A DNA stretch of 64,000 nucleotides. It comes from an uncultured Cellvibrio sp. Its GTDB lineage: Bacteria > Pseudomonadota > Gammaproteobacteria > Pseudomonadales > Cellvibrionaceae. The notes under the pieces are model-generated. The model had not been told where the DNA came from and searched no databases. It worked only from the letters and a program-made list of their open reading frames with translations. The translations under genes and the position numbers were made by a program. Shown one piece after another: positions 8,776 to 27,080 of this stretch. Position 1 is the stretch's first letter. The number at the start of each line of letters is the position of its first letter. The DNA lies in contig CAMLKG010000007.1 in the NCBI GenBank assembly GCA_946480695.1, positions 1 through 64,000 on the forward strand, written 5' to 3'.

Positions 8776-10389
8776 GTGATCATAACAATAATGATACTGA
8801 TAAAAAAAATCCTGGCGTGCCTGTTAGCTGTGCTCGTGATACTTGCAGTGTTTATAGTTCTGGTAATTCCCAATCGTTTGTCCTGGATCAACCTCGCTTC
8901 ATTCGCTGTCATTCCGATCGAACTCCTGTTGCTTGGTTTTTTGTTGCTTATACCGGGCCGGGGCGGGTTAGCCCTGCGTTGGATAGCGTCGGTGTTATTA
9001 GCGGGGGGATTGGTTTTTAAAATTGCTGACATGGCTGCCTACAAGGTTTTTGCGCGGCCGTTCAACCCCATATTTGATGCCTATTTACTCGCGAATGGAA
9101 TGGATTTGTTAAACGGAGCCCTGGGGAAGTTTGCCGCTGTGTTATTAGCCATTGCATTGCTGATACTGGTTGTTGGTATTGTAATCCTGGCGTTTGTTTT
9201 ACTTTCCCGGGCGCGTCGGGTTTTATTAAATAAACCGAAAATTACCGTCATTGCATTGTTAATACTCACATGCTGTTGGGGCGGATTCCGGGTCGCGCAT
9301 TCGCCACGCGCCGCTACGGAATTTATAGGCCAGCTCGCCATGCACGCGCGCAACACTCACCACAGTGTGCGGGATATGAAAGAATTCGAACACCTACTGG
9401 CAAATCATACAGAGGCGATTCCGGTGGAAGGTTTATTCCAAACCTTAAAAGGAAAAGATGTATTAATTGTTTTTATTGAATCCTACGGCCGTACCGCGCT
9501 GGATAAACCGGAATTTGCGGACCACCTGCTGCCATTGTTGCAATCGCAAACTGAAAAATTAAAAGCGGCGGGCTTTGGTGTGCGTAGTGCATGGTTGACT
9601 TCCCCAACAGTCGGCGGATTAAGCTGGTTGGCCCATGGTACCGCCATGTCAGGTTTCTGGGTGAATTCGCAGGTGCGTTACGACACCCTGGTAATGAGCA
9701 GGCATCCATCATTGAACCAATTGTTTCGTCAGGCCGGTTGGCGTTCCGTTGGTGTTATGCCCGCTATTACCCTGGCCTGGCCAGAGGGAAATTATTTTGG
9801 TTACGAGCATGTTTACCATGCACATAATTCCGGTTATCGGGGTAAAGCATTTAATTGGATTACCATGCCGGATCAATTTACCTTGTCAGCGTTCCAGCGA
9901 AATGAATTGCAAAAAAAGGATCGCCAACCGGTAATGGCCGAAATAGCCCTTATCTCTTCCCATGCCCCCTGGACACCGGTACCGGAATTAGTGGATTGGA
10001 ACCAAATTGGCGATGGAAAAATTTTTAACCGGCAAGCTGCGCGTGGTGATAACCCGGAAGAAGTTTGGAAAGATCCGGCGCGCATCCGTTTGCAGTTCAG
10101 GCTCTCCATCGAATATACATTGAACACATTGGTGGACTATCTATTGACTTACGGAAACGATGACATGGTCGTCATGGCGTTTGGTGATCACCAGCCAGCG
10201 CCGCTGGTGACCGGCGATAGCGACAACCGCGATGTGCCTGTGCATTTTTTTGCGCGCGACCCCAAAATTCTGGACGCTGTTTCCACATGGCAATGGACTG
10301 AGGGAATGCTTCCATCACCGACTGGGCCCATTTGGAAAATGGACGAAGTGCGTGAACGTTTTATTAAAACCTTTTCTGTGCCCCATTAG
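8776..10389 (+). CDS. membrane-anchored sulfatase/alkaline-phosphatase superfamily protein
   Basis: The N-terminal ~175 residues hold about four membrane helices and the rest is a periplasmic domain. The domain shows VFIESYGRT near residue 235 (metal-binding Glu of LtaS/EptA-like enzymes), a SPTVGGLSWLAHGT segment near 280 that probably contains the Thr/Ser nucleophile, and FGDHQP near 475 (metal-binding Asp and His). Relatives transfer or hydrolyse phospho- or sulfo-groups on envelope lipids and glycans. A GTG at 8776 opens the frame and an ATG at 8791 is equally plausible; neither has a clear ribosome binding site. It converges on the methyltransferase gene 8 bases away. Confidence 0.75.
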   Translation: MIITIMILIKKILACLLAVLVILAVFIVLVIPNRLSWINLASFAVIPIELLLLGFLLLIPGRGGLALRWIASVLLAGGLVFKIADMAAYKVFARPFNPIFDAYLLANGMDLLNGALGKFAAVLLAIALLILVVGIVILAFVLLSRARRVLLNKPKITVIALLILTCCWGGFRVAHSPRAATEFIGQLAMHARNTHHSVRDMKEFEHLLANHTEAIPVEGLFQTLKGKDVLIVFIESYGRTALDKPEFADHLLPLLQSQTEKLKAAGFGVRSAWLTSPTVGGLSWLAHGTAMSGFWVNSQVRYDTLVMSRHPSLNQLFRQAGWRSVGVMPAITLAWPEGNYFGYEHVYHAHNSGYRGKAFNWITMPDQFTLSAFQRNELQKKDRQPVMAEIALISSHAPWTPVPELVDWNQIGDGKIFNRQAARGDNPEEVWKDPARIRLQFRLSIEYTLNTLVDYLLTYGNDDMVVMAFGDHQPAPLVTGDSDNRDVPVHFFARDPKILDAVSTWQWTEGMLPSPTGPIWKMDEVRERFIKTFSVPH

Positions 10390-10397
10390 TTAATTTT

Positions 10398-11207
10398 TTA
10401 ACAAGCGGCGGGCAACGCCAGTAAATCCCAATGGCCGACGCGACAGGTTCCGGTAGCTGAATGTTGCAAACGGAATTGCTTCCAATCTTCCAATGCAGTT
10501 GGGCCTATGCCAAAACCTTCCGCTACCGCACTGGCAATCCCTGAAATCAATTCGTTAATTAATGGCTGTTGCTGCCCCGTCAATTGCCAGGGACTGGGCG
10601 CCAGTTGCACTGCGTAGCCCGCTTTTTGCAATTGATCTTTTAAATAATTGACGGCGTTCGGGCCGAGGGCAGGGCCGAACCCTTTATCGCGCAATTGATC
10701 CTTATTGAATGCATTTAATACCGTCTCATCCAATGGGTGTGCCGGCGACCAGGTTGTCGTACCGTCGTAATTCAGCGCGGCATAGAGCGCGGTTTTGCGC
10801 GGGTCAAGCCGGGCAATCAACGCATCGCAAAATTCTGGCGAAACCAGGTCAAACAAGGCGGACGCGGTAAGTATATTGGCGCCGGTCAGGGGCAATTCGT
10901 TAACAATATTTAAATCCGCCTGGTAATCTTCTATTAACCATTGCTTGCCATGGCGCTTGAGCGCCTCATCCAATAACTCTCCGTCCATATCCACCAGGCG
11001 CCATACAAAATGACTCGCGCCGAGCTTGGAAAGGGCACGCAAGGTTGAACCTGTACCTGCCCCCAAATCAACAAGGATACGATCTGGTGATATGGGGTCT
11101 TCTTTTTGGCCCAGCCAATCGAGCGCGGTTTTTACCAGGGATTTATCGCGTGCTGCAAAATCAGCCGGTTCGCGTAAATCCAGCCAGGCAATAGAAAAGC
11201 TGCTCAT
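10398..11207 (-). CDS. class I SAM-dependent methyltransferase, 269 aa
   Basis: The Rossmann SAM-binding motif ILVDLGAGTGS lies at about residues 44-54, followed by an acidic motif II (RLVDMDGELLDEAL) near 70-85. The acceptor is unknown. Its start codon overlaps the stop of the upstream glycosyltransferase gene as ATGA (11204-11207), so the two are almost certainly translationally coupled. Position beside pterin- and lipid-type enzymes suggests modification of the same product; this is inference. Confidence 0.85.
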   Translation of the reverse strand: MSSFSIAWLDLREPADFAARDKSLVKTALDWLGQKEDPISPDRILVDLGAGTGSTLRALSKLGASHFVWRLVDMDGELLDEALKRHGKQWLIEDYQADLNIVNELPLTGANILTASALFDLVSPEFCDALIARLDPRKTALYAALNYDGTTTWSPAHPLDETVLNAFNKDQLRDKGFGPALGPNAVNYLKDQLQKAGYAVQLAPSPWQLTGQQQPLINELISGIASAVAEGFGIGPTALEDWKQFRLQHSATGTCRVGHWDLLALPAAC

Positions 11208-12298
11208 AATTTCCTCACATTAAAAATTAAATTAGCAACGCTGTCCGCGCACTCATCCCAGGTGGGTAAATTTTGTGCGGCGATCTGCGCACCTGCTTGT
11301 AACCGGCGGCGGTTTTCGTGATTGGCCAGCAATTGTGCAAGCGCATTTGTTAATGAATCCAGATCACCGGGAGGAATTAAAATACCTGCGCTGGCCGGAA
11401 CTAAATCCGGTACCGCACCAGTGTTGGCTGCAACAATGGGCAAGCCAAATGCAAGCGCTTCTGCGAAGGCCATGCCGTAACCTTCAAAGTGGGATGGCAA
11501 TACAAAAAGGTCTGCACGTAGAAATTCATTACTGGCATCATCTACATTCCCGACGACTGTGATTCGCTCCTGCAATTTTTTTTCCCGTATCAGTTTTCGC
11601 AAATGCGCGACCCATAGAGGATCAAACTCCATACCGCCCACAAAGCGCGCATGCCACTGCAAATGTGCAAGCGATGCGAGGGCGTTAATTAACAAATCGT
11701 GCCCTTTGCGTTTGGTGAGGGTGGCAAGGGTTAATATTTGCGGTGTTTGGTTATGGCAAGGTGCGAAGGCGCCGCGATCCGTGCCCGGGTAGGCGATGGT
11801 GATTTTTTGTTGTGGGACTGCAAAATCCTGAACAAGTATGTTGCGCGTCATCGCGCTCGTAACGATAACCGACCTCGCAGCAGCCAGCGCGCGCATTTCC
11901 GAAACTTTTAATTGTTGTGACACCTGCCTGCTTATCCCGGTTTCCAATGCCAGGGGGTGATGGCATAGGGCGATAATGATTAATCGCTGTGATTCGCGCT
12001 GTGCGATTTCACTAAGCACACCAAAGGCCAGGCCATCGACAATTACTATCGCGCCGGATGGCAGGCGCCGAAAAATATTGGCAGCTTCCGCTAATGCCGT
12101 TGCGCCAGGATTCGGAAATTCCCCGGAAAGCGTCAGGACCTCTATCGCGAATCCTTGCCTGGTTAAGGCTTTGATCAGCTCCCGGTCATAGCGGTAACCA
12201 CCGGTAAGCGTATTGATGTCGCCGGGTATTGCAAAATACACGGGGACACCAGGGGTGGCTGTTGTATTCGGATTAATCATTACCGGTATAGTTCGCAA
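11204..12298 (-). CDS. glycosyltransferase family 4 (GT-B fold)
   Basis: 364-residue cytosolic or membrane-associated glycosyltransferase. The N-terminal acceptor domain carries TGGYRYDREL at about 32-41. The C-terminal donor domain shows LATLTKRKGHDLLINAL and the EX7E-type signature EGYGMAFAEALAFG near 280, a retaining GT4 hallmark. Donor and acceptor are unknown. It is first in a minus-strand pair with the methyltransferase gene and divergent from the RibD-like gene, with 126 bases between the starts. Confidence 0.88.
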   Translation of the reverse strand: MRTIPVMINPNTTATPGVPVYFAIPGDINTLTGGYRYDRELIKALTRQGFAIEVLTLSGEFPNPGATALAEAANIFRRLPSGAIVIVDGLAFGVLSEIAQRESQRLIIIALCHHPLALETGISRQVSQQLKVSEMRALAAARSVIVTSAMTRNILVQDFAVPQQKITIAYPGTDRGAFAPCHNQTPQILTLATLTKRKGHDLLINALASLAHLQWHARFVGGMEFDPLWVAHLRKLIREKKLQERITVVGNVDDASNEFLRADLFVLPSHFEGYGMAFAEALAFGLPIVAANTGAVPDLVPASAGILIPPGDLDSLTNALAQLLANHENRRRLQAGAQIAAQNLPTWDECADSVANLIFNVRKL

Positions 12299-12379
12299 TT
12301 AATTGGCATGTTGCGCCTGGGCGGTTGAGTCGGGTGCTAATTCTGCCTTAAGATCGCTGTCACTGACACAATAACGACC

Positions 12380-12408
12380 ACAAAATAAAAGGCCCGAATT
12401 GCGGGCCT
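12380..12408 (-). terminator. hairpin with T-rich tail on the minus strand
   Basis: Seven-base GC-rich arms aggcccg (12390-12396) and cgggcct (12402-12408) form a hairpin. Read on the minus strand it is followed by ttttattttg, which looks like an intrinsic terminator. It sits between divergent starts, so it may instead be a leader or insulating hairpin. Confidence 0.45.
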
Positions 12409-12424
12409 GCTTGCCGTGACCTGC

Positions 12425-13138
12425 ATGAATTTAAATGATGTTATCGAGCGCTGGCTAATCAGCACGCAAGAATCCCTGGCCACTCCTGATCGGCCTTTTG
12501 TTACGCTCAGCTATGCGCAAAGCCTGGATGGCAGTATTGCCCTGCGTCCCTGCGAACCCCTGGCGTTAAGCAGCGATAAATCATTGCAGCTAACGCACCA
12601 GTTACGCAGCATGCACGACGGTATCCTGGTGGGTATAGGCACCGTATTAAGCGACGATCCGCAATTAACGGTGCGGCATTGGTCAGGTAAAAACCCGCAA
12701 CCCATTGTGCTGGATAGCCAATTACGTATGCCCAGCGACGCGCGTTTGCGCCATTGTGTGGATAAGCCCTGCTGGATACTGACCACCCGGGCCAACAAAT
12801 GGCAGGATCAGGACGGCGTGGAAATTTGCCCGTCACCACCCGGCGAAGACGGTCGCGTCTGTTTGGAAAATGCGCTGGCCTTGCTCTATGGGAAAGGTAT
12901 TCGCCATTTAATGGTGGAGGGCGGCGCGCATGTGATTACGGCTTTTTTAAAAGCCAGGCTGGTGGACGCGGTTGTAATTACACTGGTTCCGACATTGGTG
13001 GGTGGTTATAAAGCAGTGGGGGAATTGGAGCATGGTTCGCGCTTAAACTTACCCATTATAAATCCGTTTTTTAGCGAGCGCCTGGGCGACGACCTTGTTC
13101 TTTGGGGAACCGTGGATTATCGCGAGGGCGATAAATGA
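12425..13138 (+). CDS. RibD C-terminal-domain reductase (dihydrofolate-reductase-like fold)
   Basis: NADPH-dependent reductase resembling the pyrimidine reductase half of RibD, without the deaminase half. Family marks are SYAQSLDGSIA near residue 30, DGILVGIGTVLSDDPQLTVR near 65-85, and LMVEGGAHV near 165. RibD reductases act on phosphoribosylamino-pyrimidines, and related enzymes reduce pteridines. The ATG at 12425 is preferred; a GTG at 12416 would add three residues. It overlaps the next dehydrogenase gene by ATGA (13135-13138). A lone reductase domain beside a pterin-synthase homologue suggests a pathway other than riboflavin. Confidence 0.85.
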   Translation: MNLNDVIERWLISTQESLATPDRPFVTLSYAQSLDGSIALRPCEPLALSSDKSLQLTHQLRSMHDGILVGIGTVLSDDPQLTVRHWSGKNPQPIVLDSQLRMPSDARLRHCVDKPCWILTTRANKWQDQDGVEICPSPPGEDGRVCLENALALLYGKGIRHLMVEGGAHVITAFLKARLVDAVVITLVPTLVGGYKAVGELEHGSRLNLPIINPFFSERLGDDLVLWGTVDYREGDK

Positions 13139-14151
13139 AAACGACAGCCCGACAATTATGGTTTACAGCTCCGCGCCATGTGGAAATCCGTGAAGCAGAA
13201 ATTGGCCCGCTGGCTGCGGGTGAACTGTTGATTGAGGTTATTTGCTCGGCAATCAGTGCCGGCACAGAAATGTTGGTATACCGCGGCCAACTTCCTTCCG
13301 AAATCCCGCTCGACGCAACTATTAAAAATTTGCAGCAAAACAATTATCCGTTGCAATACGGTTACGCCAGCGTCGGAAAAATTATTCAGTTGGGCGAAGG
13401 TATGGATAGCGCCTTGCTCGGCAAAAATGTATTCGCGTTCCAACCCCACGCCAGCCATTTTGTGAGCCATATTGAGGCCCTTATTCCTGTTCCGGATGAT
13501 ATCGCGGCGGAAGATGCCGTGTTTCTCGCTAACATGGAAACCGCGGTAAACCTTGTTCATGATGGCAAACCGTTGATTGGCGAACGAGTGTTAGTGTTGG
13601 GGCAGGGCATTGTTGGATTGCTGCTGACCAGTTTGCTGGCACAAATACCGCTGACAGAATTATTAGTGGGTGATAAATGGCCATTGCGTTTGGCTTCTGC
13701 ACAAAGACTTGGCGCTACTTCATTTGATCCTTCAAATGATGATGAGCGAAGAGTCCATCAACACCGGCTAAATAAATTTCAGGGGGCGGATTTGATTTAT
13801 GAATTAACCGGTGCCCCTGACGCGCTTAATCTCGCGGTGGATTTTAGCGGTTACCACAGCCGAATTATTATTGGCAGTTGGTATGGAAACAAATCCGCGC
13901 CGGTTTACCTCGGCGGTGCGGCCCACCGTAATCGTTTGCAAATTTCCACCAGCCAGGTCAGTAGCATTGCGCCGGATTTAAGCGGCCGTTGGGATAAGGC
14001 CCGTCGTTTCGATATTACCTGGGATATGATTCGCCGCCTTGAACCGTCGCGCTTTATCTCCCGTCGCGCACCGCTAGTGCAGGCGAACGCTGTTTACCAG
14101 CAATTGGACGAGCAACCCGGTGCGTTGGTCCAGGCTTTATTTGTTTATTAA
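13135..14151 (+). CDS. medium-chain dehydrogenase/reductase lacking zinc ligands
   Basis: 338-residue MDR-superfamily oxidoreductase. The nucleotide-binding GQGIVG motif lies near residues 158-163. Where zinc alcohol dehydrogenases have GxCG(T/S)D, this protein reads SAISAGTEM, so the catalytic Cys is absent, and the four-Cys structural zinc lobe is also missing. The same loss is seen in BchC-type bacteriochlorophyllide dehydrogenases. It would oxidise or reduce a hydroxyl or carbonyl with NAD(P)H. Translational coupling (ATGA overlap) ties it to the RibD-like gene and it precedes the PTPS-like gene by 28 bases. Substrate unknown. Confidence 0.82.
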   Translation: MKTTARQLWFTAPRHVEIREAEIGPLAAGELLIEVICSAISAGTEMLVYRGQLPSEIPLDATIKNLQQNNYPLQYGYASVGKIIQLGEGMDSALLGKNVFAFQPHASHFVSHIEALIPVPDDIAAEDAVFLANMETAVNLVHDGKPLIGERVLVLGQGIVGLLLTSLLAQIPLTELLVGDKWPLRLASAQRLGATSFDPSNDDERRVHQHRLNKFQGADLIYELTGAPDALNLAVDFSGYHSRIIIGSWYGNKSAPVYLGGAAHRNRLQISTSQVSSIAPDLSGRWDKARRFDITWDMIRRLEPSRFISRRAPLVQANAVYQQLDEQPGALVQALFVY

Positions 14152-14179
14152 TGTATATCGGTTAATCGAGATAATTTTT

Positions 14180-14557
14180 ATGTATAGCGTAGCGGTCAGG
14201 CGAGATTTTATTGCAAACCATTTTTTAATCGGCGGTGATTGGGGGGCGGAAAATTTTCCCCATGCCCATCATTACATTGCTGAGGTCATTATCGAAAGTG
14301 CGCAACTGGACAAGCATGGTTACCTGGTTGATATCGTAGAAATTGAAGCGGCTTTAACCAACAGCGTTTCTTACTTCCGTGATTCACTGTTGAACGACAA
14401 ACCGGAATTTGCCGGGTTGAACCCGAGTATCGAACATTTCAGCCGTATTATTTGTGAGCGGCTGCTTGCATCCATCAATCCACCGGGAAAAGGTTCGTTT
14501 ACCGTCAAGCTTTGGGAGAATGAATATTGTTGGGCTGCCTATAGACGCGAGTTTTAA
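14180..14557 (+). CDS. 6-pyruvoyltetrahydropterin synthase / QueD family protein
   Basis: 125-residue T-fold enzyme of the COG0720 family. Zinc ligands would be H14, H28 and H30 (HAH instead of the usual HGH). The conserved helix PSIEHFSRII (82-91) and the LWENEYCWA strand (111-119) match family motifs. The catalytic Cys that normally precedes HGH is missing and Glu24 lies three residues before H28, so the chemistry may differ from QueD. The ATG at 14180 is chosen because it begins directly at the conserved first strand. It is the third gene of the RibD-like/dehydrogenase/PTPS run. Probably acts on a dihydroneopterin-like compound; not shown by sequence alone. Confidence 0.85.
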   Translation: MYSVAVRRDFIANHFLIGGDWGAENFPHAHHYIAEVIIESAQLDKHGYLVDIVEIEAALTNSVSYFRDSLLNDKPEFAGLNPSIEHFSRIICERLLASINPPGKGSFTVKLWENEYCWAAYRREF

Positions 14558-14683
14558 TTCAATTTTTCCAGCATAACAATCCTACCCATTGTGATATAAG
14601 CAGCACCTTTCTAAGGACAATTGGGTCCGTTCGGGGTTTTGCCGTGTGCTACAGTGATTTTATCTCCCAGGCAGAACCCCCCT

Positions 14684-14923
14684 ATGAAAATCACCCAGGT
14701 TTGCGGCAACGCGCTTTACTCTATTCGATTTGTAGAATTTATTAAAAGTGACGGTAAGGTGTTGGAAGCTTATTTCGAACTTATTAATCGTCCGTTTAAA
14801 TGCGTTGGTATTTTTACCACCGTAGAGTCCGCAAAAGAAGAAATGAAACGTTTAACCGATCTTCATGACCAGCTTGTTAATAAGGCAATATCCCATCGAC
14901 AAAGGATTGTACAAAGCAACTGA
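14684..14923 (+). CDS. small hypothetical protein, 79 aa
   Basis: I do not recognise it. The first half is beta-rich (YSIRFVEFI, AYFELIN) and the second half is a charged helix (ESAKEEMKRLTDL), a fold-like pattern without known motifs. The ATG at 14684 is preferred over an upstream frame extension at 14621 that adds 21 poorly coding residues. A C-rich stretch precedes the ATG and there is no clear ribosome binding site. It lies 126 bases after the PTPS-like gene and converges on the lipid-type genes. Codon use resembles neighbours. Confidence 0.5.
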   Translation: MKITQVCGNALYSIRFVEFIKSDGKVLEAYFELINRPFKCVGIFTTVESAKEEMKRLTDLHDQLVNKAISHRQRIVQSN

Positions 14924-14977
14924 TTCATGTCCGTTTTTTATACTCCCTTTTATCCGTTAGCAATTTCCAGTGGGATT

Positions 14978-15997
14978 TTAATTTGCCGAATCGAATCCAA
15001 CCCTTCCTGTATTAGCTTGGGATTTGTGCAAAACCCCGACGCAACCCAGCCCGATGACCAAGGCTGCCGCATCGCGCACGCGCATTAGTGCAATTACCAT
15101 CAGTGCGGAATCCGCAGGGATATTGAGATAATGGAAACTCCAAAAAATGGCCGCTTCCAGGGTTCCTATGCCTCCCGGTAAGGGCAACAACAATGCAAGC
15201 CGCATGGCAACAAAAAAAAGCAGGAAGCCAGTCAAGTGAAGCTGGATGCCGGCCATCCAGAGCGTTAGTTGCAGTTCCGCAATCAAACCTATCCAGCCGG
15301 CAACAGATAACAGGGTGGCATAAAGCAGGCATTTTTTTTGCTGTTGCACGCAACTGCGAAGCTCTTCGCTTAATAAATTCCAATGCGTCGTCATTGAGTG
15401 GAGATAATGATGGCGTTGCCAGCGGTGCGCAAGTTGAGCGAGGCGTTGCGATAACCATTGCGGGCGCCGAACAATTGATATTCCAAGCAATGCGAGGGAA
15501 GCAAATAGGACAAATAGTAACGCGAGGATATTTTCCCAATCGGCGGTTGCGCTCGCAGGTGTCATAAGCAGCAGGGTGACACCCAGGATCAACACAAAAA
15601 AATTAATAATGAATTCAAAAAAACGATCCAACCCCAAGCTTAATAAGCTTTTATGCAAGGGTATTTGCGCACGTCGCCAGAGCCAAAAAATTTGCAATGG
15701 TTCGCCGCCGAATTGGGGGCCGGGCGTGATAAAGCTAATGCTTTGTCCAGCCTGGCGGATTAATAGCAACTCAAAGAAATCGAGGGTTGCATGGACGGCT
15801 TTGCCAAGCAACCACCAACGCTGGTTTAGCACGAGGATAATAAGGATATTCAGTGCAACCCAAAGGACACATTCAATAGAATCCAAACCTTGGAGGCTGG
15901 AAATTATTTCACCTAGCGGTAATTGGGCCAGTGTCCAGCCAGCCAAAATGATGGCTAGCAACCACAGGAGTGCGATAAAAAAAGAGGCTTTGGTCAC
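14978..15997 (-). CDS. lysylphosphatidylglycerol-synthase-type (UPF0104) membrane protein
   Basis: 339 residues with seven or eight hydrophobic segments and no soluble catalytic domain, matching the flippase-like transmembrane half of MprF. Typical short motifs are LIRQAGQSISFITPGPQFGG near 80-100 and LPLPGGIGTLEAAIF near 275-290. Proteins of this type are thought to move or bind lipids across the inner membrane. Its ATG overlaps the upstream CDP-alcohol phosphatidyltransferase stop as ATGA (15994-15997), so the two products probably act on the same lipid. Confidence 0.82.
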   Translation of the reverse strand: MTKASFFIALLWLLAIILAGWTLAQLPLGEIISSLQGLDSIECVLWVALNILIILVLNQRWWLLGKAVHATLDFFELLLIRQAGQSISFITPGPQFGGEPLQIFWLWRRAQIPLHKSLLSLGLDRFFEFIINFFVLILGVTLLLMTPASATADWENILALLFVLFASLALLGISIVRRPQWLSQRLAQLAHRWQRHHYLHSMTTHWNLLSEELRSCVQQQKKCLLYATLLSVAGWIGLIAELQLTLWMAGIQLHLTGFLLFFVAMRLALLLPLPGGIGTLEAAIFWSFHYLNIPADSALMVIALMRVRDAAALVIGLGCVGVLHKSQANTGRVGFDSAN

Positions 15998-17115
15998 TGG
16001 GCGCCGTCCTGACGGTTTATCCAGGTATCGTCACCGCGCCATAGCACATAATTTCCAGGGCCGAGCAATAATAACCAACTGCCAATGAACAGGATAAAAG
16101 GCTGGTACCACTCAATGTGGTTGTTCATCAGGTAGCTGCACAACAGCAACAAGGAAAGCGCGGCAATACGCGCGCCTGCGCCCACGAGGATGAGGATTGC
16201 AAGCACAATCAATGCGGTGCTGTTGGCGGTTGATAATGTTTCATCGGTATTGATAAGGAGCAACACCAGCACCGCGGTGATTATACGGAGGGCAGGTTGC
16301 AGTAAATATTTACTGGATGCATCAAGCTCCGCAAAAAATACTTGTGTCTTTATATGGTTCCCATCTATACGACCCGACACAATCCACCAATCAATAACAA
16401 ACCCCATCAAAATGGGCAACATAAAAGCCACACCTAACAGCGTTGTGGCAGTTGATGGAAATACGGGAAGCATCACCGCCGCAACGAATCCCATTTGAAA
16501 GCCGGCAAACGCCCGGCGCAATTGGCTGGGCAACAGGGGATACACCGGGCGTTGAAGTTTTTGCCGGCAATAAATACCAAATATAAAAACATAATAGGCC
16601 AGGCTTACCGCAAGGAAGCTGGGATGCAGTTTGCCAAATTGGACAGCGATCAACGGTGCGACTAACAGGCCGAGCGCATCGAACACGGTATCCAGTTCGC
16701 GACCGAGCAGGCTGCTCCTGCCACTGCGACGCGCTATAAAACCGTCAAGCCGATCCAGCAACGCAGCAACGCCATAGAACACGCCGGGCAACCAGGCAAT
16801 TATCCCGGTAGGCGTTGGTTGCAATAAAAAACCCGCCGTCAATGCGATCAACCCGCCGCGGAGCAATGTGAGACCATTTGCCCAGCCAAGGTTGGGGAAT
16901 ATTGGTAAGTTTTCAGCGGCACGATTAAGGGCCGCGCGGGTCCAGGTCTGCCAGCAGGCAAAAATCCAGATACCGGTAGCGCTCATCCAATACTGCGCCG
17001 GGCTGATGTGACCGGGTGCGAAAAAAAATCCCAGGCATCCGCCAGTGAACAAAATAATTAAAAAACCTGCCGTACCAATAACACGCAATTCTCGAAAAAT
17101 TGTTGTGTTTTGCAT
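15994..17115 (-). CDS. CDP-alcohol phosphatidyltransferase family protein
   Basis: 373-residue integral membrane enzyme. The full family signature D-x2-DG-x2-AR-x8-G-x3-D-x3-D is present: D121, D124, G125, A128, R129, G138, D142, D146. Relatives join a CDP-linked diacylglycerol or alcohol to a second alcohol using Mg2+ or Mn2+. The protein is longer than PgsA or PssA (about 180-260 residues), with an extra N-terminal region of about 110 residues that includes two hydrophobic segments and additional C-terminal membrane helices. It lies 33 bases after the Mn exporter gene on the same strand and is coupled to the UPF0104 gene. The acceptor alcohol is unknown. Confidence 0.88.
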   Translation of the reverse strand: MQNTTIFRELRVIGTAGFLIILFTGGCLGFFFAPGHISPAQYWMSATGIWIFACWQTWTRAALNRAAENLPIFPNLGWANGLTLLRGGLIALTAGFLLQPTPTGIIAWLPGVFYGVAALLDRLDGFIARRSGRSSLLGRELDTVFDALGLLVAPLIAVQFGKLHPSFLAVSLAYYVFIFGIYCRQKLQRPVYPLLPSQLRRAFAGFQMGFVAAVMLPVFPSTATTLLGVAFMLPILMGFVIDWWIVSGRIDGNHIKTQVFFAELDASSKYLLQPALRIITAVLVLLLINTDETLSTANSTALIVLAILILVGAGARIAALSLLLLCSYLMNNHIEWYQPFILFIGSWLLLLGPGNYVLWRGDDTWINRQDGAQ

Positions 17116-17148: not shown

Positions 17149-17718
17149 CTATGACCCGAGTAACGTAAGTACACCCATGGCGATAAAAATACCGCACGCG
17201 GCTTTATGTGCAAAGCCCAGCGGTAATTTATCCATTAACCATTTGCCTGCAAAGATTAACGGGATATTGGCAATCAGCATTCCCAGTGTGGTTCCGGCGA
17301 TCACGGCGAGTGTCATTAACGCCCCGGCGGAATATTTTGCAGCGAGTACCACAGTCGCAATTTGGGTTTTGTCCCCGATTTCTGCAAGGAAAAATAATAC
17401 CAATGTGGCAATGAACGGGCCGTAATTGGCGAAGCGGCCCATATCCCCATCGTCTTTGTCAGGGACCAATAACCAAAGTCCGATGGCGATAAAGCTGCCG
17501 CCGATGATCCAGGAAATCCAGTGGGAAGGAATCACATCTACCAGCGCCGCGCCCACCCAGGCAGACAGGGCATGGTTTAAGAGGGTGGCGATTAATACCC
17601 CAAGGCTGATTATCCACGGGCGGCCATAGCGCGCCGCCAGGAACAACGCGAGTAATTGGGTTTTGTCGCCGATTTCCGCAATAGCAACAACCAGGGTGGA
17701 ACTAAGGAACGCTTCCAT
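17149..17718 (-). CDS. GDT1/MneA-type manganese exporter (UPF0016 / TMEM165 family)
   Basis: About 189 residues in two homologous halves of three membrane segments, each carrying the family signature AEIGDKTQ (near residues 13 and 112), the cation site of this exporter family. Members in Vibrio and cyanobacteria export Mn2+. I start at the ATG 17718 because the protein then begins MEAFLSSTLVVAIAEIGDKTQ-like, as relatives do; ATGs at 17727 and 17763 are also in frame, but 17763 lies inside a hairpin of the riboswitch expression platform. The upstream manganese riboswitch strongly supports the function. Confidence 0.9.
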   Translation of the reverse strand: MEAFLSSTLVVAIAEIGDKTQLLALFLAARYGRPWIISLGVLIATLLNHALSAWVGAALVDVIPSHWISWIIGGSFIAIGLWLLVPDKDDGDMGRFANYGPFIATLVLFFLAEIGDKTQIATVVLAAKYSAGALMTLAVIAGTTLGMLIANIPLIFAGKWLMDKLPLGFAHKAACGIFIAMGVLTLLGS

Positions 17719-17727
17719 TATTAACAT

Positions 17728-17950
17728 TACCTGGGCGGGATGAAACACAAGAGATACCGCCATGTCCCGCCCGGAGCCATGGTGGTATCTCAGGTCTCAT
17801 CAATCCGGAGTGGCGGGCGATCGGCATCGCCGCACAAAGGACGCTTTTGCCATGCCTGGATTATCCGGCAAGTCTGTTGACAAAAGCGCTTGGCATTAAG
17901 GACTCACGTCAGTGATGCCAGAGCAGATTACTCCCCCGAGAAGGGTGGGC
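17728..17950 (-). promoter_or_regulatory. yybP-ykoY manganese riboswitch and expression platform
   Basis: On the minus strand the leader contains the two hallmark motifs of this class, GGGGGAGTA (17929-17937) and GATGAGACC (17793-17801). Between them lies a TCAACAGACTTGCC element and a long helix (gcgcttttg with caaaagcgt). Directly after GATGAGACC, gagataccacc can pair with ggcggtatctc (10 of 11 bases), forming a hairpin just upstream of the exporter start that probably acts as the on/off element. Known members turn on Mn exporter genes when Mn2+ is high. Confidence 0.85.
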
Positions 17951-18188: not shown

Positions 18189-19472
18189 ATGACGCAAGCA
18201 GCGCCTTCTTTAGTTAAGGCCGTTCCGGCTACTGCCAAACCCCTCAACCTGATGGGCCAGGAGGTTAAAGTCCCGGTCATCAACACATTGGGCCGTGCGG
18301 ACAAAGGCGCGGTAATTGACGGCTTTACCGGCGTATCAGACCAGCTTGTGGATTCGTTTCACCTGCTGGAAAACCGTGTGGCTGAGTTAAACCAGGAATT
18401 GAGCCAACTGAGTGATCGTCGGCTCGGTGAGCTGGCGGAAAAGGAAAAGCTGGCGCACCGGCTGGAAAGCTTGCTGAATTTTTTACCGGGTGGTGTGGTA
18501 GTACTGGATTCGTCCGGACGGGTAGCGGAATGCAACCCGGCCGCTACCCAATTGCTGGGTGAGCCGCTGCAAGGCGAATTATGGCGCGATGTGATCACCC
18601 GTTCCTTTGCCCCGCGCAAAGATGATGGGCACGAAGTTTCATTAAAGGATGGCCGCCGTGTGAGTATCCAAACCCGCAACCTGGGTGAGGATGGCCAGAT
18701 CATTTTGCTCACCGACCAAACCGAAACGCGCCGTTTGCAGAGTGAATTAAGTCGCCATGAGCGTTTATCCGCACTGGGCAAAATGATGAGCGCCCTGGCC
18801 CATCAAATTCGCACACCCTTATCGTCAGCCATGTTGTACGCAGGGCATTTATGCAACGGAAAGCTGGATGGTGAACGCCGCCAGCAATTTTCCGAAAAAA
18901 TCCTCGGCCGCTTGAATAATATCGAGCGGCAAGTCCAGGACATGTTGTTTTACGTTAAGGGTGAGCTGCCGTTGAACGATGTTATTAGCCTGGCGCAACT
19001 ACAGGCTGAATTGGCTGAAGCGATGGAAGTGCCGCTCATGACCAGCGAATCCCATTGTGAATGGATCATCCATTGCCGCGAGCAATATATCCAATGCAAT
19101 CGCGAAGCCTTAATCGGTGCGGTATTGAACCTTGTCAACAATGCCATCCAGGCAGTAGGCCGGGGAGCGCAGTTACGCATCGAGTTTAACCATTACCCGC
19201 AAGCGTTAAATGATCCGGAACTTGCCAATGAAACACCGCAATTCTGGATTCGTGTATGCGATAAGGGCCCGGGAATCCCGCCGGAAATGTTGGCCAATGT
19301 CGGGGACCTGTTTGTAACAACCAAGGCGCAGGGTACAGGCCTGGGCTTAAGTGTGGTGAAAGCGGTTGCGCGTGCGCATCACGGTAAATTTTTATTGCAA
19401 TCCACTTTAGGCAAGGGCACCTGTGCCAGTTTGCTATTGCCTTTCGCAAATTTTTCATCGGTAGGGGAATAA
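18189..19472 (+). CDS. fleS: flagellar two-component sensor kinase FleS
   Basis: Cytoplasmic histidine kinase that phosphorylates FleR in the flagellar cascade. 427 residues without membrane segments. A coiled-coil (about 55-95) leads to a PAS domain (about 95-190, FLPGGVVVLDSSGRV). The phospho-acceptor is H205 in ALAHQIRTPLSS, and the ATPase domain has an N box NLVNNAIQAVG and G boxes DKGPGIPP and GTGLGLSVVKAV. GGAG lies 6 bases before the ATG. Two bases separate the stop from fleR, so they form one operon behind the sigma-54 site at 18078. Confidence 0.93.
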   Translation: MTQAAPSLVKAVPATAKPLNLMGQEVKVPVINTLGRADKGAVIDGFTGVSDQLVDSFHLLENRVAELNQELSQLSDRRLGELAEKEKLAHRLESLLNFLPGGVVVLDSSGRVAECNPAATQLLGEPLQGELWRDVITRSFAPRKDDGHEVSLKDGRRVSIQTRNLGEDGQIILLTDQTETRRLQSELSRHERLSALGKMMSALAHQIRTPLSSAMLYAGHLCNGKLDGERRQQFSEKILGRLNNIERQVQDMLFYVKGELPLNDVISLAQLQAELAEAMEVPLMTSESHCEWIIHCREQYIQCNREALIGAVLNLVNNAIQAVGRGAQLRIEFNHYPQALNDPELANETPQFWIRVCDKGPGIPPEMLANVGDLFVTTKAQGTGLGLSVVKAVARAHHGKFLLQSTLGKGTCASLLLPFANFSSVGE

Positions 19473-19474
19473 TC

Positions 19475-21058
19475 ATGGCTTTGGCATTGCAACAAGCTGA
19501 ATTTGAACATGCAATCAAGGTGTTGGTTGTTGAAGATGATAATAATCTGCGCGAGGCGCTTACCGATACGTTGCAGTTGGCGGATTATCCGGTAATTCCG
19601 GTGGCAAGCGCAGAAGACGCGCTCAAGCAATTGGCCTTGTATAACGATATTCGCATGATTGTTTCCGATGTGAATATGGGTGGTATGAGTGGCCATGATT
19701 TGTTACGTGCGGTCAAGCAGGATTATCCCCACATCCCGATGATGTTGATTACCGCTTACGCGAGTATTAGCGAATCTGTTGATGCGATGAAACAGGGTGC
19801 AGTTGATTATTTGGTGAAACCCTTTGCTCCGCAAACATTGGTGGAGGCGGTTGCCCGTCATTTGGGGGTTGCACAAACCTCCGGTGACGAACCTGTGGCT
19901 ATGGCGCCATCGAGCAGGCAGTTATTGCAATTGGCGCAACGTGTAGCCCAATCGGATTCAACCGTATTGGTTGTCGGCGAATCCGGTACCGGTAAAGAAG
20001 TGCTTGCACGTTATATCCATGACCACTCACCGCGCCGCAACCAGCCTTTTATTGCCATTAACTGTGCCGCTATTCCGGAAAATATGCTGGAAGCCATGTT
20101 GTTTGGCCATGAAAAAGGCGCGTATACCGGCGCGCATACCAGCAGCCCGGGTAAGTTTGAGCAGGCCAATGGCGGGACTTTATTGTTAGATGAAATTTCC
20201 GAAATGGATATTGGCTTGCAAGCCAAATTATTGCGTGTATTGCAGGAGCGCGAAGTAGAGCGCCTGGGCGGACGCAAAACCATTAAATTGGATGTGCGTG
20301 TCATCGCTACATCTAACCGCGATATGCGCAGCGAAGTGGTAGGCGGAAAATTCCGTGAGGATTTATATTATCGCTTGAGCGTGTTGCCATTGCAGTGGGC
20401 ACCGCTGCGCGACCGTTTGGAAGATATTATCCCGCTGGCGGAAAAACTATTGCAAAAACACGCCCACAAGCAAAACCGTCGCGGCGTGAATTTATCGCCA
20501 GGTGCGCAACAACAATTACTCGCATACCCCTGGCCGGGCAACGTGCGCGAACTGGATAACATCATGCAGCGCGCATTGATTTTGCAGCCGGGTAAATCTA
20601 TCCAGGCGGAAGATTTAGGCTTGGGTGGTGACGGGCCTTATTCACAAAGCCCGATGCATTACAGCCAGAAACCCAATCTGTTAGAGGCAGCACAAATTAT
20701 GAGTGCGGTACCGGAGCGTATGGCGATCGAGTCACCATTGGTGTCACCGGCAAGCGCATCGGCCTATGCCAATCCCGTGTATCGCGCCGGCCAGTTCCCT
20801 GTCAGCCAATTTTCGGTCGGGAATGTGGCGAACGATAATCTTGCATTGCTCAGCAACGCGCCGGTTAATCATGCCTCGTTAAATAATCCGGCCCTGGGCA
20901 ATGACCTGAAGCAACGCGAATACGAAATTATTATGAACACCCTGCGAATTGAACGCGGCAGCCGTAAAAATACCGCCGAGCGTTTGGGTATCAGCGCCCG
21001 CACGCTACGCTATAAAATCGCGCGGTTGCGTGAAGAAGGGTATGAGATTACCGAGTAA
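19475..21058 (+). CDS. fleR: sigma-54-dependent response regulator FleR
   Basis: Phosphorylated by FleS, it activates RpoN-dependent class III flagellar genes in the Pseudomonas scheme. 527 residues: receiver (about 15-125, phospho-acceptor D65), AAA+ domain (about 145-370) with Walker A GESGTGKE at 168-175 and the sigma-54-contact loop GAYTGA at 215-220 (Tyr for the usual Phe), then a Fis-type helix-turn-helix near 485-525. A linker of roughly 100 residues rich in Ala, Pro, Ser and Asn joins the last two. A terminator follows at 21070. Confidence 0.94.
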   Translation: MALALQQAEFEHAIKVLVVEDDNNLREALTDTLQLADYPVIPVASAEDALKQLALYNDIRMIVSDVNMGGMSGHDLLRAVKQDYPHIPMMLITAYASISESVDAMKQGAVDYLVKPFAPQTLVEAVARHLGVAQTSGDEPVAMAPSSRQLLQLAQRVAQSDSTVLVVGESGTGKEVLARYIHDHSPRRNQPFIAINCAAIPENMLEAMLFGHEKGAYTGAHTSSPGKFEQANGGTLLLDEISEMDIGLQAKLLRVLQEREVERLGGRKTIKLDVRVIATSNRDMRSEVVGGKFREDLYYRLSVLPLQWAPLRDRLEDIIPLAEKLLQKHAHKQNRRGVNLSPGAQQQLLAYPWPGNVRELDNIMQRALILQPGKSIQAEDLGLGGDGPYSQSPMHYSQKPNLLEAAQIMSAVPERMAIESPLVSPASASAYANPVYRAGQFPVSQFSVGNVANDNLALLSNAPVNHASLNNPALGNDLKQREYEIIMNTLRIERGSRKNTAERLGISARTLRYKIARLREEGYEITE

Positions 21059-21069
21059 TTGCTTCCGCG

Positions 21070-21102
21070 ATTGCCCCGCCGCCAGGTGGGGCAATTTTAT
21101 TT
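21070..21102 (+). terminator. rho-independent terminator after fleR
   Basis: Arms attgcccc (21070-21077) and ggggcaat (21088-21095) with a 10-base loop are followed by a T-rich tail. The left flank is not A-rich, so it should act only on the plus strand. Confidence 0.75.
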
Positions 21103-21115
21103 CCACCGGGATGTT

Positions 21116-21334
21116 TCAGTGGAAATAGTCAAATTCATATTCGCAAGTTTCACGCGCCAGCCGTTTGGCTTCCCATTTTTGTTCGAGCTTGCGCCGGCAT
21201 TCCATATTGCGGCGAATTTGTTGCCGCTTCGTTTTTGAAACCATCGCGTCGGCAAGAAAGCTTGCCATCGCATTGTCCAGCAACTCCTGCTCATTGATTG
21301 CATTTGCATTTGCATTTGCATTTGCATTGCTCAT
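21116..21334 (-). CDS. small PA3496-like basic protein with Asn-Ala repeats, 72 aa
   Basis: The C-terminal half (RRNMECRRKLEQKWEAKRL, then an acidic/aromatic end) resembles the conserved tail of the PA3496 family of small Pseudomonas proteins, whose role is uncertain. The N-terminus contains five Asn-Ala pairs encoded by a perfect 6-bp tandem repeat (about 21297-21328). GGAG 6 bases before the ATG at 21334 fixes the start; the longer frame to 21400 lacks this. It lies alone on the minus strand between fleR and fliE. Family match moderate. Confidence 0.7.
   Translation of the reverse strand: MSNANANANANAINEQELLDNAMASFLADAMVSKTKRQQIRRNMECRRKLEQKWEAKRLARETCEYEFDYFH
21297..21328. repeat. hexanucleotide tandem repeat (atttgc)5
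   Basis: About five copies of atttgc in tandem, inside the small minus-strand gene, encode Asn-Ala dipeptides. Unit length is a multiple of three, so copy-number changes would lengthen or shorten the protein without frameshifting it. Confidence 0.9.
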
Positions 21335-21463
21335 TGAGGGCTCCTTGGTGCGGATCGCTACGGGGATTTTCAAGCGGATGTTATTCCGCCCAAATGACAA
21401 AAATATGAAAATCCCGCGACAAAATGGTTACCTTCTGGCAACGCATTGCCGCGCGGCAAATCT

Positions 21464-21479
21464 TGGCCTGCTTTGTGCA
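21464..21479 (+). promoter_or_regulatory. sigma-54 promoter of fliEFGHIJ
   Basis: TGGCCT, five bases, GTGCA: GG at 21465-21466 and GC at 21477-21478 have the correct 10-base gap. The site is 84 bases upstream of fliE, as expected for a FleQ/RpoN-controlled basal-body operon. Confidence 0.65.
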
Positions 21480-21562
21480 AAATTCCCTGCAAAGACAAAT
21501 TCCATGGCATTTATGCCAATTTTTTGTCGGTATGTTGGTTAAGGTATTCAAGGGGCCGGATC

Positions 21563-21937
21563 ATGACAGATCGCGTAGATATCAATCGATTACTCGGCGA
21601 AATGCGCAGCTTGAAAGCGCAGACCCAGGTATTCCAACGTCCCCAGGGCGTTGCCGATGCACCCGGTGGATTACGTAGCCTTGGTGCTGTACCTGTTGAA
21701 GGGCCAACCAAGGTCCCCGGTTTCGGCGATTTAATGACGCAAGCCATTAACAAAGTGAATGACGTGCAAAAAACTTCAAGCAATATGGCGGAAGCCTACG
21801 AGCGCGGTGTGGCCGGTGTCGATATTACCGATGTGATGATTGCCTCGCAGAAAGCCTCGGTGGCGTTCCAGGCGACAGTACAAGTGCGCAATAAATTAAT
21901 TGACGCTTATCGCGATGTAATGAACATGCCCATTTAG
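21563..21937 (+). CDS. fliE: flagellar hook-basal body complex protein FliE
   Basis: FliE joins the MS ring to the rod. The ATG at 21563, with AGGGG upstream, gives 124 residues; the C-terminal block [18 protein letters not shown] and [17 protein letters not shown] is the family hallmark. The N-terminus (about 50 residues, Pro/Gly-rich) is more variable. First gene of the operon running to fliJ, 75 bases before fliF. Confidence 0.95.
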
Positions 21938-22012
21938 TTTATGGATGCTTTTAATAAGCAGTTCGGTTGAATCTTATTTAACGCTAAACAGTAAATCCAA
22001 GGTGTATTGATT

Positions 22013-23725
22013 ATGGCAACTCCAGCCGCTTCCCAAACTGACAACCTGCCGGCGGAAAAACCCAAAATGGGCGGTGATTTCCTGGAAGGGTTAAGCAGCC
22101 TGAATTTACTGCGCCAAATTGGCCTGATGGTCACACTCGCCGCGAGTGTCGCCATCGGCTTTGCGGTGGTGATGTGGATTCAGGGTGAGGATTATCGACC
22201 GCTGTATGGCCGCATGGATAACCTGGATGCTGCCAATGTGGTGGATGTGCTGGAACAAAACCAGATTAAATTTAAAGTGGACGAAAACTCGGGGGCAATC
22301 CTGGTTGCATCCGAAGATGTGCATATGGCCCGTTTGAAATTGGCTGAATTCGGATTGCCATCCAGCCCGACCCAGGGCTTTGAATTAATGGACAAGGAAC
22401 AGCCATTGGGTACCAGTCAATTTGTAGAGAATACCCGTTACCAACGCAGTATCGAAGGCGAGCTTGCCCGTACCATTACCAGTATTACCAGTATTCGCAG
22501 CGCGCGCGTGCACCTTGCAATTCCGAAGAAAACCGTGTTCGTGCGCGATGTAACCAACCCCACCGCGTCGGTGTTTGTCGAAGTATTTGCGGGCCGGAAT
22601 GTCGATCCGGCGCAAGTGAAAGCCATTATGAATCTGGTCGCTTCATCTGTGCCCGGTATGAAAATGGCCGACGTAACTGTAGTGGACCAACACGGCAATC
22701 TGTTATCAACCGGTGAGGAAAGTGCGGAACTGCTGCTTGCGGAAAAACAACACAAATATTCACAGGATGTAGAGTCCGGTGTTATCAAACGTATTAACAG
22801 TATCCTTGAACCGGTAGTCGGGTCTGGCAAATTCCGCGCGGAAGTCAGTGCCGACATCGACTTCACCGCTGTTGAGCAAGCTGCTGAAACATTTAACCCG
22901 GATTTGCCGGCAATCCGTTCCGAGCAAACCTTGAATGAAACCCGCCGCGCGGGTGATGTCGCGGCGGGAATTCCCGGTGCGTTGACTAACCAGCCGCCCG
23001 GAACCGAAACCGCAGCGCCTGAACAAATTGACCCTGTTACCGGCCAGCCGGTGGCAGCGCCGCAGCCTACTAACAATCGTGAACAGGCTACGCGCAATTA
23101 CGAGCTGGACCGTACCGTGAGTTACACCAAGCATCAACAAGGCACATTAAAACGTTTAACCGTCGCGGTGGTGGTGGATGACAAGGTGGTAACCAATGCC
23201 GACGGTACCCAGACCCTGGTGCCCTGGACTGAAAACGAATTGGAACGCTTGTCTATACTGGTGAGGGACGCGGTGGGCTTCAGCGCGGTACGGGGTGACA
23301 GTGTGAATGTATTGAACTCGCCCTTCGCCGGGCGGGTAATTGACCCCACAGTGGGCGTGAGCGAAGTTCCCTGGTGGGAACAATGGGTACTGCCCAATAT
23401 CAAATACATCGCGAGCGTACTTGTCATCCTGCTAATTGTGTTTGGTTTGTTGCGCCCGATGTTCAAAAGTTTATCCAGGCAAGGCGGCAAGCTGGCGGAG
23501 GAAGAAGAAGCTCGCCAGTTGGCGGCGCTGGAAGCGGCGGGTGGTATATCCGGCCTGGAAAATATGTCTGATGAGACGGTAACCCTTACCGGCGGCCACG
23601 CGCTTATGTTGCCGGGGCCAGAGCAGGGTTACGAAGAACAAATTAACGCTATTAAAGGTTTGATTGCCGATGATCCGGGCCGCGTGGCCCAGGTTGTTAA
23701 AAAGTGGATAAATCGCGATGACTGA
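22013..23725 (+). CDS. fliF: flagellar MS-ring protein FliF
   Basis: Forms the inner-membrane MS ring that seeds the basal body. 570 residues from the ATG at 22013 (a TTG six bases earlier is less likely). Membrane helices flank the periplasmic ring-building domains at about 37-57 and 455-475. The domains include RYQRSIEGELARTI and SARVHLAIP. A low-complexity Pro/Ala/Thr insert lies near 320-355, as in other FliF. The cytoplasmic C-terminal peptide (last ~40 residues) is the FliG-binding tail. Its end overlaps fliG by 8 bases. Confidence 0.96.
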   Translation: MATPAASQTDNLPAEKPKMGGDFLEGLSSLNLLRQIGLMVTLAASVAIGFAVVMWIQGEDYRPLYGRMDNLDAANVVDVLEQNQIKFKVDENSGAILVASEDVHMARLKLAEFGLPSSPTQGFELMDKEQPLGTSQFVENTRYQRSIEGELARTITSITSIRSARVHLAIPKKTVFVRDVTNPTASVFVEVFAGRNVDPAQVKAIMNLVASSVPGMKMADVTVVDQHGNLLSTGEESAELLLAEKQHKYSQDVESGVIKRINSILEPVVGSGKFRAEVSADIDFTAVEQAAETFNPDLPAIRSEQTLNETRRAGDVAAGIPGALTNQPPGTETAAPEQIDPVTGQPVAAPQPTNNREQATRNYELDRTVSYTKHQQGTLKRLTVAVVVDDKVVTNADGTQTLVPWTENELERLSILVRDAVGFSAVRGDSVNVLNSPFAGRVIDPTVGVSEVPWWEQWVLPNIKYIASVLVILLIVFGLLRPMFKSLSRQGGKLAEEEEARQLAALEAAGGISGLENMSDETVTLTGGHALMLPGPEQGYEEQINAIKGLIADDPGRVAQVVKKWINRDD

Positions 23726-24761: not shown

Positions 24762-24803
24762 TCCGGCGTTGCCATTCGTTAATGTTGTTGGGATAAAGCC
24801 ACC

Positions 24804-25652: not shown

Positions 25653-25658
25653 GCCACC

Positions 25659-27044: not shown

Positions 27045-27080
27045 TGATTAATGCGCCACGCCTCATTGAGGACCGTTACG

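Follow-up and report, generated by a model that had tools for sequence, protein, structure and literature searches.

We found that positions 8776 to 17115 of a 64,000-nucleotide stretch from an uncultured Cellvibrio sp. (contig CAMLKG010000007.1; the whole stretch is called the window hereafter) carry eight genes, each intact, that almost certainly act as one functional unit: all seven families named in an original prediction made from the letters of the same stretch, and an adjoining sulfatase-like gene. On balance we favour the interpretation that they represent a single system for biosynthesis and export, for the most part inherited, transferred and lost as a whole, which would make a GTP-derived, glycosylated product, couple it to lipid and export it. 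It is highly probable that the product is a GTP-derived pyrimidine or pterin; a pterin ring is somewhat favoured over an open pyrimidine, and the chances of a lipid linkage appear about even. We infer a glycosylated, often methylated molecule of the pterin or pyrimidine type, perhaps carried on a membrane lipid as its head group. The genes, and the region between the two divergent ones, are:

8776..10389, + strand: SULF, membrane enzyme with a sulfatase/alkaline-phosphatase-superfamily domain, predicted LtaS/GacH/EptC-type phospho-alcohol transferase
10398..11207, - strand: MT, class I S-adenosylmethionine (SAM) methyltransferase
11204..12280, - strand: GT4, family 4 glycosyltransferase (likely ATG start at 12280; PF00534, 107.7 bits)
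12281..12424, no strand: divergent GT4/RibD-type intergenic region, the spot where many relatives have GTP cyclohydrolase II
12425..13138, + strand: RibD_C-type pyrimidine reductase without deaminase domain (RibD; PF01872, 141.9 bits)
13135..14151, + strand: DH, zinc-less BchC-like medium-chain dehydrogenase
14180..14557, + strand: PTPS-like T-fold protein (PTPS) with the signature ExxxH[AS]H (PF01242, 81.3 bits)
14978..15997, - strand: LPG_synthase_TM (UPF0104) flippase-like membrane protein (LPG-TM; PF03706, 106.4 bits)
15994..17115, - strand: CDP-alcohol phosphatidyltransferase (CDP-OH; PF01066, 50.1 bits), catalytic motif intact, with an extra C-terminal membrane part

Reading of the open reading frames (ORFs) and searches with Pfam and NCBIfam profiles showed that all genes claimed in the original prediction exist as described there. 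The claimed couplings are real as well: the RibD/DH, GT4/MT and CDP-OH/LPG-TM pairs each overlap by 4 bases, and the PTPS gene starts 28 bases past the end of DH. On the basis of the sequence and of conserved N-termini, three starts had to be moved, to 12425 for RibD (from 12416), to 14180 for PTPS (from 14120) and to 12280 for GT4 (from 12298). The DH of the window shares 77% identity with a protein named Cellvibrio sp. and 78% with the copy of Cellvibrio mixtus J3-8.

Conservation of the gene set

An alignment of DH was used to scan genome contigs. Of 313 encoding stretches the 80 best, together with the window, were searched with profiles in six frames (81 loci, those cut by contig ends included; L067 and L068, identical in layout and scores, belong to the same assembly). 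Besides DH, found in all 81 by construction, these loci contained PTPS in 79 cases, RibD in 77, GT4 in 73, LPG-TM in 60, GTP cyclohydrolase II (GCH2) in 59, CDP-OH in 58, MT in 50 (plus 6 of a second MT type), SULF in 35 and the gene for the periplasmic protein YceI in 13. When loci cut by contig ends were left out, 46 remained in which DH is flanked by 8 kb or more on either side (window included, either MT type counted), and all seven families were present in 36 of them; MT alone was missing in L004, L012, L015 and L029. The record titles of the best 80 loci include Cellvibrio, Methylomonas, Pseudohongiella, Saccharospirillum, an Opitutaceae bin and Anaerolineales, many being bins and some titles looking misassigned. 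The gene set recurs in Gammaproteobacteria, Chloroflexota, Alphaproteobacteria, Actinomycetota and Haloarcula.

More distant loci gave a similar picture. DH was found in 17 of 398 sampled Pseudomonadota genomes (E <= 1e-50), 16 of which carry a distant form (174-209 bits), and in all 16 a match to the PTPS profile (26-69 bits) lies beside it. Clustering of the proteins encoded in the 13-20 kb around these 16 loci recovered GT4 in 16, PTPS and DH in 15 each, RibD in 12, MT in 10, CDP-OH in 8, GCH2 in 6 and SULF in 5, in differing gene orders; the clustering has gaps at L121, where PTPS scores only 26 bits, and at L122, where DH was read inside a longer ORF. With a threshold of E <= 1e-45, DH was present in 36 of 201 Chloroflexota genomes and in 9 of 100 genomes of the family of Cellvibrio, and the distribution is therefore patchy. 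In one of the latter (G927, C12:723858-724875) DH was matched as two pieces in different frames.

A search with the distant-type DH against 72,556 plasmid records returned 28 records, of which 12 were inspected, their gene tables being incomplete. CDP-OH is annotated near DH in eight of the 12 (Haloarcula halophila, Haloarcula sp. GH36, Haloarcula marismortui, Streptomyces fungicidicus, Agrobacterium tumefaciens pAt, Thiodictyon, Microbacterium and Rhizobium sp. SL42). The incomplete tables list no CDP-OH near DH in Methylosinus trichosporium OB3b, Rhodobacteraceae SC52, Palleronia and Neorhizobium, where DH, PTPS and other members are present, and no PTPS in the record of H. marismortui.

We also found a clear association at the level of whole genomes. 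Among 274 gammaproteobacterial genomes (DH at E <= 1e-45; MT, SULF and CDP-OH at E <= 1e-15; Fisher p-values uncorrected for kinship), DH occurs in 16. MT was found in 13 genomes, all DH-positive (p 9e-20), CDP-OH in 14, 13 of them DH-positive (p 1e-18) and the sole outsider, G512, being a weak 59-bit match, and SULF in eight, again all DH-positive (p 2e-11). In six of these eight SULF is unlinked to DH (on another contig in five, 1.9 Mb away in G057), so that adjacency cannot account for the match between the two. Similarly, MT and CDP-OH share a contig in G539, DH being on a different one, and in G472 MT alone lies on a contig apart from DH. The evolutionary distances of the families correlate, GT4 excepted, with r between 0.64 and 0.86, a correlation that common descent alone would also yield. 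The full sets in 36 of 46 loci, the co-occurrence in 274 genomes and the repeats in distant and plasmid loci strongly support the shared pathway put forward in the original prediction; the test that it had named as refutation, independent scatter of homologues, was applied to these data and did not refute it.

The entry step and the protein families

It had been stated that the window holds no GTP cyclohydrolase and that the first step would lie elsewhere. A six-frame profile search indeed found no GCH2 in the window, and two Cellvibrio relatives (G001 and G002) keep a third GCH2 copy elsewhere that scores 364 and 359 bits on the cluster-type profile, on which the riboflavin-type copies read in G003, G004 and G007 score 250-257 bits. 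The statement does not extend to the cluster as such: in the 59 of 81 loci that have it, GCH2 is a gene of the cluster, usually the one immediately upstream of RibD. The gene upstream in L004 was also identified as GCH2 (PF00925, 232.7 bits). The window genome's own cluster-type copy would accordingly be located outside the window.

In two Haloarcula records a GTP cyclohydrolase IIa (315.7 bits in the first one, against an NCBIfam cut-off of 306) is found between CDP-OH and DH, CDP-OH standing directly before a GTP cyclohydrolase IIa-DH-PTPS-MT series in which neighbours overlap or are no more than 25 bases apart. GTP cyclohydrolase IIa is unrelated to GCH2 in ancestry and makes a formylated ribosylaminopyrimidine. 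Because the one enzyme is replaced by the other, the entry compound would be a ribosylamino-pyrimidine and not a pterin of the GTP-cyclohydrolase-I type, and the pathway probably begins with the conversion of GTP to such a ribosylamino-pyrimidine. The Tyr that matches Tyr105 of Escherichia coli is kept in 55 of 56 cluster GCH2s, the remaining one falling outside the search motif. The cluster GCH2 of S. fungicidicus (L167:14611-15270) has a Met where the others that were read have Tyr, and adjoins a creatininase-family gene; a Met-type enzyme of S. coelicolor reportedly stops at the formyl compound. A rule by which a formyl-making cyclohydrolase goes with a creatininase would fit S. fungicidicus and is suggested by Haloarcula (GTP cyclohydrolase IIa in two records, creatininase in a third). 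We do not claim it: a creatininase gene also occurs in L111, L112, L114 and L125, and Tyr is kept in the three of these whose GCH2 was read. Overall, creatininase lies near the cluster in 0 of the 80 near loci, 4 of the 16 distant ones and 2 of the 12 plasmid records.

The PTPS-like protein is a member of the COG0720/T-fold superfamily (T-fold and PF01242). In the 74 PTPS sequences above 180 bits, to which the signature counts refer, the Glu of ExxxH[AS]H is present in 74, the first His in 71, Ala or Ser in 74 and the second His in 74. By the motifs given in PMC5041015, the protein is neither a PTPS-I (QueD; CxxxHGH) nor a PTPS-II (tetrahydrobiopterin; CxxxxxHGH), and it differs from PTPS-III (folate; ExxHGH) in that Glu is one residue farther from HxH and Gly is replaced by Ala or Ser. 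E113, a Glu presumed to be the pterin anchor, is invariant in both PTPS subtypes (the window type and the alphaproteobacterial/Streptomyces type), and this retained residue would be consistent with the pterin-like character of the decorated, perhaps lipid-linked molecule of the original prediction. The Haloarcula protein is of the window type (42% identical), and the closest solved structure is SCO6650 (3d7j), deposited as an uncharacterised protein. Four Cellvibrio relatives have, apart from the cluster, an ORF that contains two PTPS-like stretches and is about 291-299 aa long (G001 C1:305463-306230, G002 C12:305620-306387, G003 C4:218469-219248 and G004 C9:201842-202621).

Only RibD_C was matched in the 240-aa ORF of the RibD-type protein, which is thus not a bifunctional RibD (deaminase domain plus RibD_C); it belongs with the reductases of the 2,5-diamino-6-ribosylamino-pyrimidinone 5'-phosphate (DARPP)/RibD_C type (best solved relative 2azn, 89 bits) and scores below the cut-off of the archaeal DARPP reductase equivalog TIGR01508 (117.1 against 186.45 bits). 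DH has BchC as its best NCBIfam relative, with a score (TIGR01202, 79.2 bits against a cut-off of 291.25) that makes it a relative and not a member. Zinc-dependent alcohol dehydrogenases of the medium-chain dehydrogenase/reductase type have Cys and a GHE motif as ligands of the catalytic zinc; DH lacks this signature, QYGYA replacing GHE and C37 being unconserved in 81 sequences. MT gave no Pfam match; D47, G49, G51 and G53 of its VDLGAGTG stretch are invariant in 16 aligned sequences, as in class I SAM methyltransferases. CDP-OH is a member of its family by the motif DGxxARx8Gx3Dx3D, with D121, D124, G125, A128, R129, G138, D142 and D146 invariant in 18 sequences, and LPG-TM scores over the cut-offs of both PF03706 and TIGR00374 (89.6 bits), which places it in the lipid flippase/MprF membrane family with a predicted role in transport.

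For SULF the Pfam score is borderline (PF00884, 25.1 bits against a cut-off of 25) and the best rows of a sequence search of the PDB had E-values of 0.056 or worse. The structure model has N-terminal membrane helices and an alkaline-phosphatase-type domain, the architecture of the LtaS/OpgB/EptA phospho-alcohol transferases, and its best fold matches in the PDB are LtaP, LtaS, GacH and EptC, with arylsulfatases just 2-3 Z units lower and the best matches to the transferases only 9-14% identical. T278, E235, D471 and H472 are invariant in 22 sequences and may be the counterparts of the Thr nucleophile and metal ligands of LtaS. By its modelled fold this "sulfatase" is a predicted LtaS/GacH/EptC-type phospho-alcohol transferase.

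Proposed pathway and alternatives

Substrates, ring closure, order of steps, lipid linkage and final acceptor can be proposed from what is known of the families. GTP would be opened by GCH2 (in the cluster, or at a second locus in two Cellvibrio) or by the archaeal GTP cyclohydrolase IIa, giving DARPP or its formyl form, and the RibD_C-type reductase would convert this to the ribityl compound. The zinc-less DH would then oxidise a side-chain hydroxyl, after which the C2' ketone and the 5-amino group could close to a pterin of the 7,8-dihydroneopterin-phosphate type without GTP cyclohydrolase I, reduction and oxidation replacing the Amadori step of that enzyme. The PTPS-like protein would bind the ring via its conserved Glu and remodel the side chain, GT4 would glycosylate and MT methylate, and CDP-OH would join all or part of the product to a phosphatidyl group. 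The UPF0104 protein may aid membrane crossing, and in some proteobacteria the LtaS/EptA-like enzyme may move the phospho-head-group onto an acceptor outside.

A bolder version, which we consider speculative and rather doubtful as a whole, would have several bacterial phyla and the haloarchaea display this glycosylated, often methylated pterin, made without GTP cyclohydrolase I, on the head group of a phospholipid (and, for some proteobacteria, on an acceptor in the periplasm, for instance osmoregulated glucan), membrane-anchored and perhaps redox-active. The last point refers to neighbours of the cluster: cytochrome b561 is found near it in 7 of 80 near loci, 4 of 16 distant loci and 3 of 12 plasmid records, and YceI in 13, 2 and 0 of these, respectively. 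In the 13 near loci (L039, L040, L044, L049, L055-L057, L062, L063, L069 and L071-L073) the YceI gene lies beside the GT4/MT pair; the distant loci are L120 and L123. An FkbM methyltransferase gene was found near the cluster in 5 near, 5 distant and 2 plasmid cases.

With respect to glucans, genes of the OpgG type lie near the cluster in 5 of the 80 near loci and in 6 of the 16 distant ones, those of the OpgH type in 5 of 80, 9 of 16 and 2 of 12 plasmid records, and either type (MdoG and MdoH together) beside 11 of 16 distant clusters. The loci listed with such neighbours are L032, L036, L054, L061, L066, L168, L183 and 11 of the 16 from L111 to L126. In the family of Cellvibrio, OpgG (PF04349) is present in 8 of 8 DH-positive genomes (the ninth, G927, not included) against 3 of 16 DH-negative ones. 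We rejected osmoregulated periplasmic glucan as an obligatory acceptor: of 16 further gammaproteobacterial genomes with DH only 7 have OpgG, and the cluster also occurs in Haloarcula and Streptomyces, neither of which is known to make such glucans.

Several observations weigh against the interpretation of one system making a lipid-coupled pterin, and a first group of them concerns its unity. Among the 46 fully flanked loci, CDP-OH and LPG-TM are not near DH in L014, L030, L060 and L078 (MT being missing as well in the first two), LPG-TM was not found in L036, and L074 has DH and LPG-TM only. The p-values for co-occurrence are inflated by kinship. Scoring was confined to the few top candidates of each genome (no more than 5 to 9 in the rows inspected), which leaves absences unproven; with this scoring SULF was not found in half of the DH-positive Gammaproteobacteria. 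MT gave no match in both Methylomonas genomes tested (G005 and G006) nor in G417 and G579, and a match of only 28 bits in G571, while the distances of GT4 track those of six families poorly (r 0.32-0.42; 0.57 with CDP-OH and 0.72 with MT). The MT gaps and the poor fit of GT4 suggest that the GT4/MT decoration is the variable part of the pathway.

The loci without CDP-OH and LPG-TM nearby would fit two co-selected but chemically separate systems, a soluble glycosylated pterin (GCH2-RibD-DH-PTPS-GT4-MT) and a decoration of membrane lipid or periplasmic glucan (CDP-OH, LPG-TM and SULF), as would the separate transcription units in the window and the glucan genes by 11 of 16 distant clusters. We regard this as unlikely in view of the presence of 13 of 14 CDP-OH and 8 of 8 SULF matches in DH-positive genomes, SULF even when unlinked, and of the position of CDP-OH directly before the GTP cyclohydrolase IIa-DH-PTPS-MT series in the two Haloarcula records.

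A second group of adverse points concerns the PTPS-like protein, which lacks the Cys of PTPS-I/II and, in the alphaproteobacterial/Streptomyces subtype, also the second His of HxH, so that it may not catalyse PTPS chemistry at all. These altered residues, including the zinc-site His, together with the fact that RibD_C and GCH2 are riboflavin-type enzymes, would be in line with a decorated open pyrimidine or a flavin- or toxoflavin-like product, for which RibA- and RibD-type enzymes would supply the ribitylaminopyrimidine and the PTPS-like protein would be a binding or scaffold protein only. This alternative has a minor but real share of the probability. The T-fold family and the anchoring Glu are kept in both subtypes, and no lumazine synthase, riboflavin synthase or deaminase was among the nine families found in at least 34 of 81 loci, no search having been aimed at these.

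A third group concerns overlap with housekeeping metabolism. G003, G007 and G008 show only two GCH2 matches each, of the housekeeping type where read. In the Chloroflexota genome G011 (L075) nothing outside the cluster matched GCH2 or PTPS; the cluster GCH2 of G011, as the sole copy there, may also serve riboflavin, and the two functions may coincide in some cases. Names given in databases, '6-carboxytetrahydropterin synthase' and 'GTP cyclohydrolase II' among them, likewise suggest queuosine, folate or riboflavin housekeeping genes that are neighbours by chance, an explanation that we consider most improbable. Chance neighbourhood is rejected by the 36 full sets among 46 loci and the genome-level co-occurrence, and the arrangement is conserved across two domains. 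A housekeeping role in queuosine or folate synthesis is rejected by the PTPS signature, which is not that of type I, II or III as given in PMC5041015, and by the further GCH2 and PTPS-family matches outside the cluster in the other 10 of 11 genomes checked.

Other genes of the window and relation to known systems

Between the PTPS gene and the membrane pair lies an ORF of 100 aa (14621-14923, + strand) whose family is found in 3 of 81 loci, window included, and which had no match in Pfam or NCBIfam. Beyond CDP-OH, a membrane protein with two EIGDKTQ motifs (17149-17763, - strand) is presumably a manganese or calcium exporter of the UPF0016/GDT1 type, followed by a two-component regulator pair and flagellar-looking genes resembling fliE/fliF/fliG (18189-27536, + strand), that have no relation to the cluster. 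An Rfam scan of the whole window gave 0 matches at gathering scores, and a promoter scan found 4 promoters against 12.8 in shuffled sequences.

All families of the cluster are known, and its novelty is at the level of the pathway: as far as we found, no known pathway combines these steps. No title or opening of an abstract listed in searches of an open-licence library, which lacks most subscription papers, describes the gene set. The nearest system is the Streptomyces SCO6650-type cluster (3d7j; plasmid p1 of S. fungicidicus), in which the PTPS of S. fungicidicus has neither the Glu nor the second HxH His of the window type; the Bandarian group has reportedly worked on the S. coelicolor proteins. 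The pathways of tetrahydrobiopterin and of glycosylated pterins of the limipterin and cyanopterin type share a PTPS-family step and a glycosyltransferase acting on a GTP-derived pterin, whereas the present cluster has an entry via GTP cyclohydrolase II or IIa in place of I, a RibD_C-type reductase, a BchC-like dehydrogenase and membrane-lipid enzymes. The toxoflavin pathway shares a pathway-specific GCH2, a RibD-type enzyme and a methyltransferase; it is not known to include a PTPS, GT4, CDP-alcohol transferase or flippase.

The cluster provides a testable gene set for proteins now recorded as 6-carboxytetrahydropterin synthase, zinc-binding alcohol dehydrogenase or sulfatase in Cellvibrio, methanotrophs, rhizobia, streptomycetes and Haloarcula, and it offers a context for SCO6650. 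The proposed pathway would constitute a way of making pterins that does without GTP cyclohydrolase I, and it predicts that bacteria and archaea alike have an overlooked metabolite derived from GTP, probably a lipid of the envelope.

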